Positions 24,322-31,907 of a DNA stretch of 32,758 bases are shown here, piece by piece. How positions within the stretch are numbered: position 1 is the first letter of the stretch; each line of letters opens with the position of its first letter. This DNA is from an uncultured Pelagibacteraceae bacterium (GTDB lineage Bacteria; Pseudomonadota; Alphaproteobacteria; Pelagibacterales; Pelagibacteraceae), in NCBI GenBank assembly GCA_902590365.1, contig CACIWJ010000004.1, forward strand, positions 1 through 32,758, written 5' to 3'. The notes beneath the pieces were generated by a model, which worked only from the letters and a program-made list of their open reading frames with translations, was not told the DNA's origin and made no database searches. The position numbers and the translations under genes are program-made.

Positions 24322-24353
24322 AATAAAAAAAATCCTTTAAAATCAAGGGTTTT
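24322..24353 (-). terminator. Possible intrinsic terminator of ogt
   Basis: Minus strand reads AAAACCCTTGATTTTAAAGGATTTTTTTTATTT: short stem followed by a T run. Confidence 0.45.
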
Positions 24354-24627
24354 AGAGCAAAAAACCTTCTTTTTTTAAGAGCTTTTTCTTTGCTTTTAAG
24401 CCTCCAGGACCCGAGAAACCACCTAAGGTCCCATCTGATCTAATTACTCTATGACATGGTATTTTCGGTGAATATGGGTTCTTTCCACATGCGTTAGCCA
24501 CAGCACGTGCCGATTTTGGCTTATTTATCCCAATAGCTACCTGTTTATAGGTTTTAACTTTACCTTTAGGTATAGTTTTGAGGTATTTCCAGACTTTTAT
24601 TTGAAATTGGCTGCCTTTTAAAATCAT
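24352..24627 (-). CDS. ogt: O6-alkylguanine-DNA alkyltransferase, catalytic (C-terminal) domain only
   Basis: FQIKVWKYLKTIPKGKVKTYKQVA; ARAVANACGKNPYSPKIPCHRVIRSDGTLGGFSGPGGLKAKKKLLKKEG; intact PCHR. Confidence 0.9.
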   Translation of the reverse strand: MILKGSQFQIKVWKYLKTIPKGKVKTYKQVAIGINKPKSARAVANACGKNPYSPKIPCHRVIRSDGTLGGFSGPGGLKAKKKLLKKEGFLL

Positions 24628-24633
24628 TTAATG

Positions 24634-24685
24634 AAAAAAAACACTGTTTCCTTGCACTTTTTAAGGTGCAAAGAACAGTAGTTTT
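24634..24685 (-). terminator. Intrinsic terminator of the candidate ncRNA
   Basis: Minus strand CTACTGTTCTTTGCACCTTAAAAAGTGCAAGGAAACAGTGTTTTTTTTC: roughly 14-bp stem with one bulge, then eight T. Confidence 0.7.
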
Positions 24686-24820
24686 GGCACGTCGTTGTAT
24701 GCGCTACCGCCATGCCTTCTGCCCTACGATTTTAGCGCTACTCCGCAGAGCTTTCTGCCCCCTGGGCTTGGTCCTCTCGGCCTTTCCCCAGTCGGCCAGT
24801 TAAGGGTTGCCCCTTAATTC
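24634..24820 (-). ncRNA. Candidate structured non-coding RNA, family not assigned
   Basis: GC-rich island in AT-rich DNA; perfect hairpin UUAAGGG-GCAA-CCCUUAA (24817-24800) at the 5' end; GCAGA-AAGC-UCUGC hairpin (24758-24745); possible pseudoknot GCGCUA(24738-24733)/UAGCGC(24706-24701) with GGCAU(24716-24712)/GUGCC(24690-24686); ends in a terminator hairpin plus U8. Ends are approximate. Confidence 0.65.
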
Positions 24821-24915
24821 ATTTTTACAATATCAAATGTCAAAAGTTGTATATATCACTTTATTGTTGAATTTATTGAGTTTTTCACAACTGTGGATAG
24901 CGTGGATAACTAAAA

Positions 24916-25080
24916 CTAAAAAATCAGAAGGGCAATAAGAATAATAAAAGCTATAGCAATAATCCCAAATATTGAAGCTATGATTCTATTTTTAGTAGTT
25001 TCTTTAAGTTTAGGCCAATAATTCATTATAAGGAATGTTGCAATTACTGCTAAAAGTCCAATTAATATATATTTAGGCAT
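24916..25080 (-). CDS. Small membrane protein (54 aa, not in supplied ORF track)
   Basis: Translated by eye: MPKYILIGLLAVIATFLIMNYWPKLKETTKNRIIASIFGIIAIAFIILIALLIF*; two predicted TM helices around a charged loop. Confidence 0.55.
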   Translation of the reverse strand: MPKYILIGLLAVIATFLIMNYWPKLKETTKNRIIASIFGIIAIAFIILIALLIF

Positions 25081-25101
25081 AATTTCTTTTAACTTAATTG
25101 C

Positions 25102-25130
25102 TTGACATTTAAAATGAGTTATATTATTAC
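25102..25130 (+). promoter_or_regulatory. Possible promoter of the tyrosine recombinase
   Basis: TTGACA (25102-25107) with 17-nt spacer to TATTAC (25125-25130); the -10 overlaps the inverted repeat. Confidence 0.4.
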
Positions 25131-25160
25131 TAATGATAATTAATTGTTATCAATAGTAAT
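25126..25160. repeat. 35-bp inverted repeat (14-bp arms, 7-bp centre) directly upstream of the recombinase start codon
   Basis: ATTACTAATGATAA-TTAATTG-TTATCAATAGTAAT; arms match at 13 of 14 positions; ends 3 bp before the ATG at 25164. Confidence 0.9.
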
Positions 25161-25163
25161 TAT

Positions 25164-26117
25164 ATGAATGAGCTAACAACAGATCTAAAATCGCTTCATG
25201 AGGCTACTTTAAATAACCTCAAAAGTTCTAAAGCAAATAATACTTTAAGAGCATACAAATCAGATTTTAAAGATTTCGGAGCTTTTTGTGCTAAGCATGG
25301 TTTAAATTCATTGCCATCAGAGCCAAAAATAGTTTCTATATACCTAACTCATCTCTCTAAAAGTTCAAAAATAAGCACTTTAAGAAGAAGATTAGTTTCA
25401 ATAAGCATGGTTCATAAACTTAAAGGTCATTATTTAGATACAAAACATCCAATAATTGTTGAAAATTTAATGGGAATAAAAAGGGTAAAAGGAAGTATTC
25501 AAAAGGGTAAAAAACCTATATTAATCAATCATTTAAAATCAATAATTAATGTAATAGATCAACAAAAAATTGATGAAATAAAAAAGTTAAGAGACAAATC
25601 AATAATTCTAATTGGCTTTGGAGGTGGTTTTAGAAGAAGCGAGCTTATTTCAATAGACCATGAGGATCTAGAATTTGTTACTGAAGGACTTAAAATAACT
25701 ATTAGAAGATCAAAAACAGATCAATTTGGTGAAGGAATGATAAAAGGATTGCCCTACTTCACAAATGAAATTTACTGTCCAGTAACTAACTTAAAAAAAT
25801 GGTTAGAAATATCCAAAATTAGTACAGGGCCAATTTTTAGAAGATTTTCAAAAGGCTCATCATTAACAGATAAAAGATTAACAGACCAATCTGTAGTCCT
25901 ATTAATGAAAGAATATTTAAATTTAGCAGGTATTGAAAATAGGAATTTTGCTGGTCATAGTTTAAGATCGGGTTTTGCAACTGTTGCGGCTGAGTCCGGG
26001 GCTGATGAAAGAAGCATTATGGCTATGACAGGTCATAAAACAACACAAATGGTCAGAAGATATATAAGAGAAGCAAATATATTTAAGAACAATGCTTTAA
26101 ATAAAATAAAAATTTAA
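25164..26117 (+). CDS. Tyrosine recombinase / site-specific integrase
   Basis: SAM-like N-domain (NTLRAYKSDFKDFGAFC); catalytic GFGGGFRRSELISI, HSLRSGFATVAAESGADERSIMAMTGHKTTQMVRRYIR (R...HxxR...H...Y). Confidence 0.93.
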   Translation: MNELTTDLKSLHEATLNNLKSSKANNTLRAYKSDFKDFGAFCAKHGLNSLPSEPKIVSIYLTHLSKSSKISTLRRRLVSISMVHKLKGHYLDTKHPIIVENLMGIKRVKGSIQKGKKPILINHLKSIINVIDQQKIDEIKKLRDKSIILIGFGGGFRRSELISIDHEDLEFVTEGLKITIRRSKTDQFGEGMIKGLPYFTNEIYCPVTNLKKWLEISKISTGPIFRRFSKGSSLTDKRLTDQSVVLLMKEYLNLAGIENRNFAGHSLRSGFATVAAESGADERSIMAMTGHKTTQMVRRYIREANIFKNNALNKIKI

Positions 26118-27019
26118 ATAGAAATCCATTCATTTGGCCAAAAATCATTATTATTTGAAGGATTGATATTTTTTGGTCTAAGGCAAATTTTATTAGGATT
26201 ATTATTTAACCACGCTCCCCACCAATGGAATGATGTGGGGCCTACTATAAAATGTTTGCTAAAATTAAATAAATGAAAATCGTTCAATGATTTATTTATA
26301 CTATTTTCAACAAATACATAGTCATTTTCATTGAAATGTTCTCTTAAATTCGTAAAATCGTTAGACCATATAAAAAACATAGGATTATCAATTTTTTTCT
26401 TAATATAAGCGATAGCTCGATATATATAATCAATTGTATCTTTGGTAAATTTTAGAGATTTATCATTATTTTTAAATCTACCCTCTGAATATCTATTTTG
26501 CCTAATGCAAATAGACACAGAATTATTATTTTTAATATCGTTCATGTAAAAATTATTATTTTCTAATAGATTATTCTTAACTTTTAAAATTTTTTTAAGG
26601 TCATCTTTATATTCATAAAAATATTTTTCAGATTCAAAATGACCTTCTAAAAAAAGCTTATTAGAGTAATTATCTAAGTTAATTTTTGTAAAAAATGTTT
26701 TTTTATGAGAATCTTTTTTTTCTAATATAAAACTTCTATGGTTACGAAATTTATCCAACTTAATTAAAATTTTTCTTTTTAAATTTTTGATATGTGTATC
26801 AAATTTAAGATCAGTTGTTGCAAGGTTTTCTTCAATGTGAAAATTATTTAATTCATAAGTTCTAAGCTGGTTTTTTTTTTTAAAATAACCCGATGTATTA
26901 TCGATGAAAAGTTGATAATTATAATTTTTAGATAAACTGTAAGCATTAGCATACATAAATAATTGGTTACCAATACCCTGTGCAAGTCGTACTGTAAGAG
27001 TTTTTTCAACGTTATTCAT
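26114..27019 (-). CDS. GT11-family glycosyltransferase (alpha-1,2-fucosyltransferase-like)
   Basis: VRLAQGIGNQLFMYANAYSLSK N-terminus; ICIRQNRYSEGRF; FHLFNFSKHFIVGPTSFHWWGAWL. Confidence 0.85.
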   Translation of the reverse strand: MNNVEKTLTVRLAQGIGNQLFMYANAYSLSKNYNYQLFIDNTSGYFKKKNQLRTYELNNFHIEENLATTDLKFDTHIKNLKRKILIKLDKFRNHRSFILEKKDSHKKTFFTKINLDNYSNKLFLEGHFESEKYFYEYKDDLKKILKVKNNLLENNNFYMNDIKNNNSVSICIRQNRYSEGRFKNNDKSLKFTKDTIDYIYRAIAYIKKKIDNPMFFIWSNDFTNLREHFNENDYVFVENSINKSLNDFHLFNFSKHFIVGPTSFHWWGAWLNNNPNKICLRPKNINPSNNNDFWPNEWISI

Positions 27020-27025
27020 TTAATT

Positions 27026-27898
27026 TTACCTCTTTATAAAATTTAAAAAAAAATATTTAATTTTACAAATTAAAAAAGGGAAAAAACTGGAAAAAGATAT
27101 TTTAAAATCTTTTAAAGGCTCGTTGAAAATATCACCTCTTTTTAAATAATATTTAACAAAAAACTCAATTGAAATACCCCACTTTAAAAGAAAAGTTTTG
27201 TTTGCATTATTTCTAACTACATTCTTGTTTTTTCTAGTAGTTTGTGAACCAAAATGATAAACTCTAGACTTATTTACACACTTAAATATACGAACACCAT
27301 TAATCCATAACTTCATATTTAAATCAGGATCAGACCCAAAACCAGGGTTAAACTCCTCGCTGAAGCCCCCTATTTTGTTCCATAAATTTTTTGAAATCAC
27401 ATGTGGAGCCCAATGAGAGCCTTGCAAATCACTGAATTTTAAATTTTCAAAATTATCAACTAGTTTTTGTTCATCAAAATTTTCAAGACTTCTACCACAA
27501 TCAAAGTAAATATGATTCATTTTAGAACCCGGTAATGCTTTTGTTGGGGAGATTTGGGTTGATGATAAATAAAAATTTTTATGTGAAATTGATTTAATTT
27601 CACTTATCAAAAAATGATCCCATTTTGGGCAAAAATACATGTCATCATGAGCATATACTATTAACTCGTTTATAGATTTTTTGGAGGCAATATTTACTCC
27701 ACTACAAAGTCCCATGTTTTTTTCTGTACTTGTATATTGTATATTATGAGTTTTACAAAAATTTTCTGTTTCCTCGTCTTTGCCATTTATGTGAATAATA
27801 ATTTGGTGATTGTATGATGAATTTTTTTTAATAGAATTAATTGAGGTTTTAAGATATTTGTAATTTTTAAAAGTTGGAACTATAATTGAAAATTGCAT
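27026..27898 (-). CDS. GT2-family glycosyltransferase
   Basis: FSIIVPTFKNYKYLKTSINSIKKNSS; NMGLCSGVNIASKKS; VYAHDDMYFCPKWD; GGFSEEFNPGFGSDPDLNMKLW. Confidence 0.88.
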   Translation of the reverse strand: MQFSIIVPTFKNYKYLKTSINSIKKNSSYNHQIIIHINGKDEETENFCKTHNIQYTSTEKNMGLCSGVNIASKKSINELIVYAHDDMYFCPKWDHFLISEIKSISHKNFYLSSTQISPTKALPGSKMNHIYFDCGRSLENFDEQKLVDNFENLKFSDLQGSHWAPHVISKNLWNKIGGFSEEFNPGFGSDPDLNMKLWINGVRIFKCVNKSRVYHFGSQTTRKNKNVVRNNANKTFLLKWGISIEFFVKYYLKRGDIFNEPLKDFKISFSSFFPFLICKIKYFFLNFIKR

Positions 27899-27928
27899 TT
27901 CTAAAATATAATTGTTTATTACAAAATA

Positions 27929-28918
27929 ATGAATTTTGATACCATAAATTGCGATACAGCTTTAATAGGGTGTGGTTATTGGGGAACTAATATAGCAAAA
28001 GTACTTACTAAAATTAAAAAAAACAAAATAATTATTTATGATGAGAATCAAGCAAATTCTATCATTTTAAAAAAAAGATTTTTAAATAAGTTTATCATAG
28101 CAAAAAAAATCACTAACATTCTTGATAGCAAAAAAGTTAAAAATATTATTTTAGCAACCCCACCTAATAAAAATTATAAATTACTTAGTTTGTGCATCAA
28201 ATATAAAAAAAATATTTTTATAGAAAAACCAGGTTTAAAAAGCTACTCAGATTTAATTAAAATTAAAAAACTGAAACATGATAAAATTTTAATGTTTGGA
28301 TACATTTATTTATTTAATAATAATATTAAGTTCTTAAAAAAATATATTACGTCTAAATCAAATGGTAAAATATTATATATAAGATTCGAAAGACAAAACT
28401 TAGGACCTATTCGTAATGACGTTAGTGTAGCATACGATTTATCATCTCATGATTTAAGTATATTCTTATATTTATTTAAAAGTCTTCCTAAATTGAATAA
28501 GAATTCTAGTTACTCTATACTTAAAAAAAATATTTCTGATATCTCAAATTTAAGTTTCAAATTTAAAAATTTCAACATTGACATAAACAATAGCTGGTTA
28601 AATCCTGATAAAATTAGGAGAATAACAATCATCACTGATAAAAAAATGTTATTATTCAATGAAATGGAAAGTGTCAATAAAATTAAAATTTATAATAAAT
28701 ATGCTAGGTATCCAAAAATTTCTGAATTCGATAATAAATTTTTTAATAAAAAGGCTAAAATTTATTTAGGAAAAAATTATTCACCTAAAATTTCTGAAAA
28801 CGATAGCTTGTTAGATGAGATCAAGTATTTTTTTAAATGTGCTAAAAGAAATACTAAACCCGTAACTGATATTGATTTTGCAACCAAAATTTTAAAAATT
28901 TTAAATAAAGTTAGCTAA
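27929..28918 (+). CDS. Gfo/Idh/MocA-family oxidoreductase
   Basis: ALIGCGYWGTNIAKVL; IILATPPNKNYKLLSLCIKYKKNIFIEKPG; LMFGYIYLFNNNIKFLKKYI. Confidence 0.88.
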   Translation: MNFDTINCDTALIGCGYWGTNIAKVLTKIKKNKIIIYDENQANSIILKKRFLNKFIIAKKITNILDSKKVKNIILATPPNKNYKLLSLCIKYKKNIFIEKPGLKSYSDLIKIKKLKHDKILMFGYIYLFNNNIKFLKKYITSKSNGKILYIRFERQNLGPIRNDVSVAYDLSSHDLSIFLYLFKSLPKLNKNSSYSILKKNISDISNLSFKFKNFNIDINNSWLNPDKIRRITIITDKKMLLFNEMESVNKIKIYNKYARYPKISEFDNKFFNKKAKIYLGKNYSPKISENDSLLDEIKYFFKCAKRNTKPVTDIDFATKILKILNKVS

Positions 28919-30992
28919 AAGTTTTATCGATTATTTTTTTTGTTAAACGAATATTATTAAATAACTTAAAGTATTTAATCTTTCCATTTTTGCCATATTC
29001 ATCAATTTTTTTAGGATTATTTAAAAAAAATTCAACTTTTTTACCTAAATCATTATAATTTTTATAAAATCCAACTTCACTTTCATTAAAAAAATCATTA
29101 AATTTAGTTTTTTCATCTATAAACGTATAAATTCCATTACCAATTAATGCTGCTATTCGATTACTAGAAGTATACTTTAATGGCAATCCCCTACTTAAAT
29201 TTAATGCCATTTTACATTTAATCAATTCTTCATAAAAATTATAATTCCATTTAGGACTTTCATTCGCAACTCCTAAAATATTATAGTTTATATTTGGAAA
29301 AATATTAATTAAGTTACTGATAAAAGACTCTCTTTCATCTTTTTTACCTGCTTTTAATTTACCGAAATTTACACCATGGCTTAATGCAAAAAATAGATCT
29401 TTATATCTATTTTTATATTCAAACACTTTAAGATTTTCAATATTTTCATCAACTGGTATTGGCAAATAGTTTAATTTTTTTTTTAAAATGTTTGATTTAA
29501 TTTCATCAGGATGAGTTGTTACGAAATATGAATTTATTAATTCATTATTTTTTTCAATTAAATTTAAGTTATTTTTCCAATTTGGGCCCTTCCCTTTATG
29601 ACCTAAAGCATCTTCATACCACAAAGCAATTTTTGAATTATAATTTTTTTTAATTTTTGTTAATGTTTGAAAATCTAAGATATTGTTATGACCAAGAACT
29701 ATTAAATTGGGTCTGTAATTATCAGCAACTGAATTAATTTTTGAGCTAATGTATTTGCTTGCATTAACTAATGGCGATTTAGGCAAGTAATTTCTATAAC
29801 TAAAATTAATAGTATCGTGTCCATTTCTTATGAAACCTTTTGAAAGTTTATTGGCAATAGAAATATTAAATAATCTATGGTCATTTCTTTCATCAAAAGT
29901 GGATATGTGCAAAATCTTAAGCTTGATACCTTTGTTAAAATTAAAATTTGCGTTTAAATAAAAATTTTTAAGATTATCGATTTTTTTTACTTTATCGGAC
30001 AATTTATGTTTAACATTTCTCCAATTAAATTGTTGATGTTTGTGTCTAATTTTTTTATTTTTAATAAGAAAGTTAATCATTTTAAAAAGTTCGTTCTCAT
30101 TAACTTGATTAATAAATAATTTATTATCAAAAGTTTCTGGAAGACCACCTTTCCTGGATGTAATGGTAGCGCAGCCTGCTGCTGCTGATTCCATTGCTGT
30201 ACGTCCAAAAGGCTCTTGCCATTTAGATGGAACAACTGATATTGCAGATTTATTATAATATTGAAGTATTTTTTTGTGATTTACCCAATCTAGAATTTTA
30301 AAATTACGATGTTCAAAGTTAAACTTTTCACGAGGTTCATTTCCAATAGCTAAAGCTTCCCAATTTTTATGTTGATCTAAAATTTTAACTATTGATTTTC
30401 CAAATATATCATAACCTTTTGATGAGTTAAGTTTTCCAGTAAAAATTATTTTATTAAATTTTTTTGGGAATTTTCTTAATGGATCAATTGCAGGATAAAG
30501 TATTTCACAATTGTTTTTATGATTATAAGGTAAATCTTCAAAAAATTTTTTCTTTACCCAGTTACTAACAAAATAAATTTGATCAGTATTATTTGCAATA
30601 AAAATTCTTTCTTTAGAAGTATATGATGATCTTAAATCTTGAGGATTATTATGGTAAACAAATATTAATTTGCTTTTAACCTTTTTCTTTATCAAATAAA
30701 TCAATGATTCGGGTCGGTTGTGAATTTCTATTATTTTAAATTTATATTTAAGATATTCATCATAAAATTTAGATGTGTACGATGCATTTTTGCTAAGAAA
30801 AGTTTTTCCTAAATTTAAATTTTTAAAATTATTTAATAATGGTTTATTTCCTTTTTTTAAATTACCATAAACTAATGTTTTACTTTTTAACTTACTTTTT
30901 GATAAATAATCTTTGACCCAAATAGATGCAGCAGCCGCATTATTTTCTGTAAAATTTTCTTTGTAAGGTAGTAGTATGGCAATATCTTTCAT
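28911..30992 (-). CDS. Two-domain glycosyltransferase (N-terminal GT4-like plus C-terminal CgeB-like/GT-B domain)
   Basis: N-half: FTGKLNSSKGYDIFGKSI...VPSKWQEPFGRTAMESAAAGCATITSRKGGLPETF; C-half restarts with LKILHISTFDERNDHRLFNISIANKLSKGFIRNGH and ends with NRIAALIGNGIYTFIDEKTKFNDFF. Confidence 0.8.
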   Translation of the reverse strand: MKDIAILLPYKENFTENNAAAASIWVKDYLSKSKLKSKTLVYGNLKKGNKPLLNNFKNLNLGKTFLSKNASYTSKFYDEYLKYKFKIIEIHNRPESLIYLIKKKVKSKLIFVYHNNPQDLRSSYTSKERIFIANNTDQIYFVSNWVKKKFFEDLPYNHKNNCEILYPAIDPLRKFPKKFNKIIFTGKLNSSKGYDIFGKSIVKILDQHKNWEALAIGNEPREKFNFEHRNFKILDWVNHKKILQYYNKSAISVVPSKWQEPFGRTAMESAAAGCATITSRKGGLPETFDNKLFINQVNENELFKMINFLIKNKKIRHKHQQFNWRNVKHKLSDKVKKIDNLKNFYLNANFNFNKGIKLKILHISTFDERNDHRLFNISIANKLSKGFIRNGHDTINFSYRNYLPKSPLVNASKYISSKINSVADNYRPNLIVLGHNNILDFQTLTKIKKNYNSKIALWYEDALGHKGKGPNWKNNLNLIEKNNELINSYFVTTHPDEIKSNILKKKLNYLPIPVDENIENLKVFEYKNRYKDLFFALSHGVNFGKLKAGKKDERESFISNLINIFPNINYNILGVANESPKWNYNFYEELIKCKMALNLSRGLPLKYTSSNRIAALIGNGIYTFIDEKTKFNDFFNESEVGFYKNYNDLGKKVEFFLNNPKKIDEYGKNGKIKYFKLFNNIRLTKKIIDKTFS
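29571..29607. repeat. Second arm of the 37-nt inverted duplication (within the glycosyltransferase CDS)
   Basis: ATTTTTCCAATTTGGGCCCTTCCCTTTATGACCTAAA; encodes LGHKGKGPNWKN on the minus strand. Confidence 0.95.
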
Positions 30993-31576
30993 TGTGATTT
31001 TCTAATTTTATTGAATCTATTTAATTCTTTTTTAAGATTTTTATAGTTAATTTTATATTTATTTAAAGCTAATATATTTCTTTTAACTTGTCTTACTGGT
31101 TTACCGTAAAATACATATCCAGGTTTTAATTTAATTTTTTTTGTTACTATTGAACCCATTCCTATCATAGTAAAGGAACCAATTACCTGATTTTGATGAA
31201 TAACAGTTTTAATTCCGACAGTTGAATTTTTCATTATATGAACATTTCCTCCTAAAACGACATTGCTACTCAAAGTTACATTGTTTTCGATATAACAATC
31301 ATGATCAACTGTAGTCGAATTCATCAAATAGTTATTATTTCCTATATAAGTTTTTTTTTTAAGATTTGTTGGTAAGTGAATATTACAATATTCATTTATA
31401 GTATTTTTATTACCAATTTCAATTTTACCAACTGTTTTTTTATTTTTCCATTGCGGAACATTTCCAATAACAACATAGGGACCAATTATATTACCTTTAC
31501 CAATTTTAATTTTTTTCCAATTTATTACAGCGGTTTTATGAATAAGATTACCTTTTATTTTTTTAAATTTAAGCAT
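30989..31576 (-). CDS. LpxA-like hexapeptide-repeat acyltransferase
   Basis: IHKTAVINWKKIKIGKGNIIGPYVVIGN; left-handed beta-helix repeats; LSSNVVLGGNVHIMKNSTVGIKTVIHQNQVIGSFTMIGMGSIV. Confidence 0.85.
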   Translation of the reverse strand: MLKFKKIKGNLIHKTAVINWKKIKIGKGNIIGPYVVIGNVPQWKNKKTVGKIEIGNKNTINEYCNIHLPTNLKKKTYIGNNNYLMNSTTVDHDCYIENNVTLSSNVVLGGNVHIMKNSTVGIKTVIHQNQVIGSFTMIGMGSIVTKKIKLKPGYVFYGKPVRQVKRNILALNKYKINYKNLKKELNRFNKIRKSQ

Positions 31577-31832: not shown

Positions 31833-31907
31833 TGGCGGTCCCTAGGGGAATCGAACCCCTCTTTCGAGGATGAAAACCACGTGTCCTAACCGATAGACGA
31901 AGGGACC
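31833..31907 (-). tRNA. tRNA-Glu (anticodon TTC), CCA encoded
   Basis: GGTCCCTTCGTCTATCGGTTAGGACACGTGGTTTTCATCCTCGAAAGAGGGGTTCGATTCCCCTAGGGACCGCCA folds as a cloverleaf. Confidence 0.96.

Follow-up and report, generated by a model that had tools for sequence, protein, structure and literature searches.

A probable free-standing IMES-2 RNA gene in a Pelagibacteraceae contig, with covariation evidence for pairing between two of its hairpin loops

The question raised by this locus is what kind of element makes up the GC-rich block beside an ogt-type gene in the window, i.e. the whole 32,758-nucleotide stretch of DNA analysed here. The first-pass annotation had taken the block for an unassigned structured RNA gene on the minus strand, while hedging that it might be one of the marine-metagenome RNA motifs. 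Its core does lie in the GC-richest stretch, with 57% GC at 24684-24824 where the window overall has 26%, and a cmscan search matched the minus strand of this core to the Rfam family RF02035 (IMES-2) over model positions 1-141 of 141, with an E-value of 2.8e-41 and a score of 156.2 bits (gathering cut-off 54.7 bits). Judged by this score, by the covariation in hairpins P1-P4 and by the marine SAR11-type hosts, the block is a member of this catalogued family. The hedge was thus right and the label "unassigned" falls, since the model matches over its full length, and on the first-pass annotation's own terms so strong a match (156 bits) removes the novelty of the family. What is new is the covariation evidence for a loop-loop pairing and the map of SAR11 carriers and non-carriers.

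IMES-2 was reportedly described by Weinberg and colleagues in Nature in 2009, as one of a set of structured RNAs that stand out by their size or abundance, and the IMES RNAs are said to have been picked partly for high abundance. We found no open-access paper assigning IMES-2 a function. A permissive E-value scan of the block gave no other credible Rfam family, RF00013 (6S RNA) included, and the only further RNA in an Rfam scan of the whole window was a tRNA-Glu (31833-31907), with no match to the tmRNA, SRP RNA or RNase P RNA models, in line with the missing signatures remarked on earlier.

The fold and its parts are as follows:

24684-24824, minus strand: IMES-2 RNA core (RF02035, model positions 1-141)
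24800-24817, minus strand: P1, a 7-bp hairpin with a GCAA (GNRA) tetraloop; 100% of cells paired, double changes at 5/7 pairs
24755-24799, minus strand: P2/P2a, a bulged helix with a GNRA-type terminal loop and an A-rich internal loop; double changes at 9/11 and 4/4 pairs
24721-24751, minus strand: P3, an 8-bp hairpin with GUAGCGCUAAAA in its loop; double changes at 8/8 pairs
24686-24716, minus strand: P4, a 9-position hairpin with loop GGUAGCGCAUACAAC; double changes at 5/9 pairs
24733-24738, minus strand: loop 3 kissing strand GCGCUA (RNA positions 87-92), by pairing and covariation with loop 4
24701-24706, minus strand: loop 4 kissing strand UAGCGC (RNA positions 119-124), by pairing and covariation with loop 3

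Homologues were aligned first as 17 diverse sequences by MAFFT without structure, and then as 29 sequences with members of the divergent genera g5 and g11 among them, and the pairs of the Rfam hairpins were counted together with the loop 3-loop 4 pairing. Over the 29 homologues 34/45 pairs showed compensatory change on both sides. Double-change cells numbered 204 against a shuffled mean of 48, and the true register was 93.5% paired, a share that fell to 33-41% when the structure was slid by 1-3 columns. The shuffle controls leave relatedness in; the stronger argument comes from the slid registers and from changes that recur in different genera. This strongly supports conservation of the four-hairpin fold P1-P4, the 5' GCAA hairpin of the first-pass annotation among them. 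A second hairpin proposed there (GCAGA-AAGC-UCUGC) does fold in the window sequence, yet over the 29 homologues only 65% of its cells are paired and none of its pairs has supporting covariation; its strands belong elsewhere, P2 using GCAG as its 3' strand and P3 having CUCUGC within its 5' strand. The terminal loop of P2/P2a is GAGA in the window and GCAA in four other loci (L214-L217), one internal position of P4 is never a standard pair (29/29 sequences), and the stretches conserved outside the helices are short, rich in A and offer no long antisense seed.

Two further pairings, GCGCUA with UAGCGC and GGCAU with GUGCC, had been drawn by eye as a pseudoknot; both proved real, and the first, between loops 3 and 4, is supported by covariation. 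In its helix 95.4% of the cells are paired and 3/6 pairs show double changes, while slid registers reach at most 57%; there are 11 double-change cells compared with 1.9 in shuffles, with 0/500 shuffles as high. The RF02035 model, which agrees with the RNA of the window over its full length in all hairpins, in the conserved loops and in the SAR11-type host, differs from it in stopping before the terminator and, as displayed by cmscan, in lacking this pairing. Because the two loops are unpaired in the aligning model, the alignment was not fitted to their pairing, and the same three pairs carry double changes in the structure-free MAFFT alignment. Among the variants, AGCACU occurs with AGUGCU in g5, g11 and one member of g9, AGUGCU with AGCAC in g12, and AGUACU with AGUACU in one member of g8. 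These changes support a pseudoknotted fold in which loops 3 and 4 of IMES-2 would pair with each other. They would also accommodate loop 3 of one molecule pairing with loop 4 of another, while a loop 3-loop 3 homodimer was rejected as the conserved interaction, loop 3 being non-self-complementary in several lineages in which loop 4 compensates. In that two hairpin loops pair and pack, the fold recalls intramolecular kissing-loop RNAs such as the purine riboswitches, but the IMES-2 hairpins are adjacent rather than arms of a three-way junction, and no cis-regulated gene accompanies them across contexts.

The loop pairing bears on whether IMES-2 could be a base-pairing small RNA that binds mRNAs through an exposed loop sequence. 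Its size, its own promoter and terminator, and loops with strongly conserved heptamers (GUAGCGC) would suit such a role. However, pairing between the two loops takes up the heptamers, which change in concert from genus to genus and hence cannot be a fixed seed, and there is no other long conserved single strand, so we regard a small RNA of this kind as unlikely.

The signals expected of a separate gene flank the core:

24827-24835, minus strand: extended -10 element TGATATTGT, TGnTAnnnT being conserved among homologues
24634-24682, minus strand: rho-independent terminator, a hairpin followed by U8, beyond the Rfam model, by sequence and fold

The predicted folding energy of the minus strand is -74.2 kcal/mol, compared with -53.2 +/- 4.2 for shuffled sequences (z = -5.0, 0/200). 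TGnTAnnnT was present in 128/140 distinct upstream sequences, mostly 16-19 nt ahead of P1, where about 10 would be expected from shuffles, and transcription would start near 24820. A T-run follows the RNA in 174/187 loci. Both the extended -10 and the closing bulged hairpin with its run of eight U had already been picked out by the first-pass annotation, and its free-standing RNA gene is well supported by these features: the block would be an IMES-2 gene of about 185-190 nt with its own promoter and terminator. Upstream of the -10, about 26-37 nt before P1, the RNA strand is nearly free of G (about 1% G in 140 distinct sequences), which suggests an upstream promoter element.

The neighbouring genes in the window are:

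24352-24627, minus strand: ogt-type DNA-binding-domain protein, directly downstream (PF01035, 1.8e-32; TIGR00589)
25164-26117, plus strand: divergent Xer-like tyrosine recombinase (PF00589; below the XerC/XerD equivalog cut-offs)

In the genus of the window IMES-2 lies between the recombinase and ogt, and its terminator ends just ahead of ogt here and in most loci of the genus. This arrangement is what a cis-regulatory leader of ogt would look like, i.e. a riboswitch or attenuator with an aptamer, a terminator and the ogt start a few nucleotides further on. In other loci and in genera g8, g9 and g12, however, IMES-2 follows mnmA, in most cases with a membrane-protein gene converging on it; in g5 it is flanked by an SNase-like gene and a convergent SRAP gene, and in g11 by selO and rmuC. 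There are thus at least four contexts with unrelated neighbours, and ogt is retained in genomes without IMES-2. Since the contexts differ between genera, IMES-2 is not a cis-regulator of ogt and most likely acts in trans; we consider the leader highly improbable.

That the block holds no RNA gene at all, and is instead a site of recombination or some DNA element next to the recombinase, is suggested by the adjoining tyrosine recombinase and palindrome, but is scarcely credible in view of the compensatory base-pair changes in every helix, the strand-specific promoter and terminator, and the contexts without a recombinase. The palindrome, imperfect and 33 bp long (25127-25159, TTACTATTGATAACAATTAATTATCATTAGTAA on the minus strand), ends 4 bp ahead of the recombinase start and occurs once in each of 73 loci. 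Most tested genomes of the family of the window have one PF00589 recombinase, and both tested sister-family genomes have two. In one single-contig genome the GC skew changes sign at the palindrome, and in another roughly near it. The "island" integrase is probably the sole Xer recombinase of the cell, placed next to a dif-like palindrome, and the two may make up an Xer/dif unit with a single recombinase where replication terminates. The island setting assumed by the first-pass annotation is accordingly doubtful, the recombinase resembling a resident Xer protein more than a mobile-element integrase. The interval between ogt and the recombinase (24628-25163) is a variable slot, which carries IMES-2 and a small membrane ORF in the window; in six IMES-2-free genomes (L158-L163, one of them complete) it is AT-rich, with small ORFs or an acetyltransferase-like ORF (named by eye). 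Past the recombinase, 26114-31576 holds glycosyltransferase-like and sugar-related ORFs, a run that by eye, from the translations, looks typical of a variable surface-polysaccharide region.

We also mapped the occurrence of the RNA. Among sampled Pelagibacterales genomes at least 80% complete, 225/398 had an IMES-2 match, in 6/12 genera and nearly always with one copy per genome; among those at least 90% complete the count was 77/151. In a class-wide sample of 387 genomes IMES-2 was confined to the family of the window, and the titled loci all belong to uncultured Pelagibacteraceae or Pelagibacterales, i.e. SAR11. Genome G397 is the sole listed case with two copies, the second (L223) being divergent, on a separate contig and among unrelated neighbours; it may be a genuine second copy or contamination. 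Within the genus of the window, several genomes that are closed or nearly complete gave no credible match to either RF02035 or model R2, which includes the divergent genera and recovers g5 and g11. The absence of IMES-2 from many complete genomes of the genus means that it is dispensable, and not an essential housekeeping RNA. A 2009 survey of Candidatus Pelagibacter ubique HTCC1062 does not mention IMES (PMC2704228), which is consistent with HTCC1062 being a putative non-carrier.

Other accounts of this distribution were considered and set aside. Hidden divergent homologues in the IMES-2-free genomes were not credible (the best R2 E-value was about 0.014, and the strongest hits of model R1 fell inside rpoA). 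IMES-1 (RF02034), which shares the naming group and is likewise a marine structured RNA but forms a separate family, is no substitute, with 0 matches over the cut-off in 42 Pelagibacterales genomes. A phage origin found no match in phage records, nor in IMG/VR with two patterns. In the recombinase tree one well-supported group holds the carriers, together with three non-carriers that seem to nest in it, at weakly supported positions and with some genomes incomplete; four other non-carriers lie outside. Within the genus of the window the pattern is most simply read as vertical descent with losses, while between genera the RNA has changed genomic places.

The distribution also touches on the idea of a 6S-like RNA that binds RNA polymerase and stands in for 6S RNA, which went undetected in these genomes. 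RF00013 had no match at E <= 10 in 16 Pelagibacterales genomes, and the reportedly high abundance of IMES RNAs would fit. 6S RNA is also of similar length and free-standing. Yet the 6S search was positive in just 8/14 control genomes, so that its absence is weak evidence, and 6S is undetected in carriers and non-carriers alike. There is no sequence or structure match, and IMES-2 has the P3-P4 kissing fold where 6S RNA has a long bubbled helix; a long helix with an open-promoter-like bubble is lacking. We therefore hold this replacement to be very unlikely.

That the RNA is catalytic or binds a ligand, with a chemistry of its own, is a slim possibility. The compact pseudoknot, the conserved internal A-rich loops and the P4 mismatch amount to a complexity like that of ribozymes or aptamers, but there is no cis-regulated gene, no known catalytic core and no other credible Rfam family.

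We give roughly even chances to IMES-2 being a stable, trans-acting structured RNA that works with a protein partner. The fold would yield a compact and stable RNA, leaving the GNRA loops and the conserved A-rich single strands free for tertiary contacts or protein binding. Such packing or binding fits better than antisense action, because the single strands are short, A-rich and placed beside GNRA-type loops and the conserved heptamers are already paired mutually. Together with a putative protein partner, IMES-2 would then serve in trans as a scaffold, as a sequestering RNA or as a regulatory RNA, and would be neither an antisense RNA nor the leader of the next gene. This sequence analysis itself turned up no protein partner or target.

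For the biology of the family, the loop-loop pairing gives IMES-2 a testable tertiary fold, and the natural carriers and non-carriers within one genus, with single-contig genomes of each kind, form a ready comparison for its function. It is a long shot that the pseudoknotted RNA, by itself or within an RNA-protein machine, carries out biochemistry new for bacterial RNAs and is lost where unneeded; if true, this would be a new bacterial RNA function in cells that are among the most abundant of the ocean.
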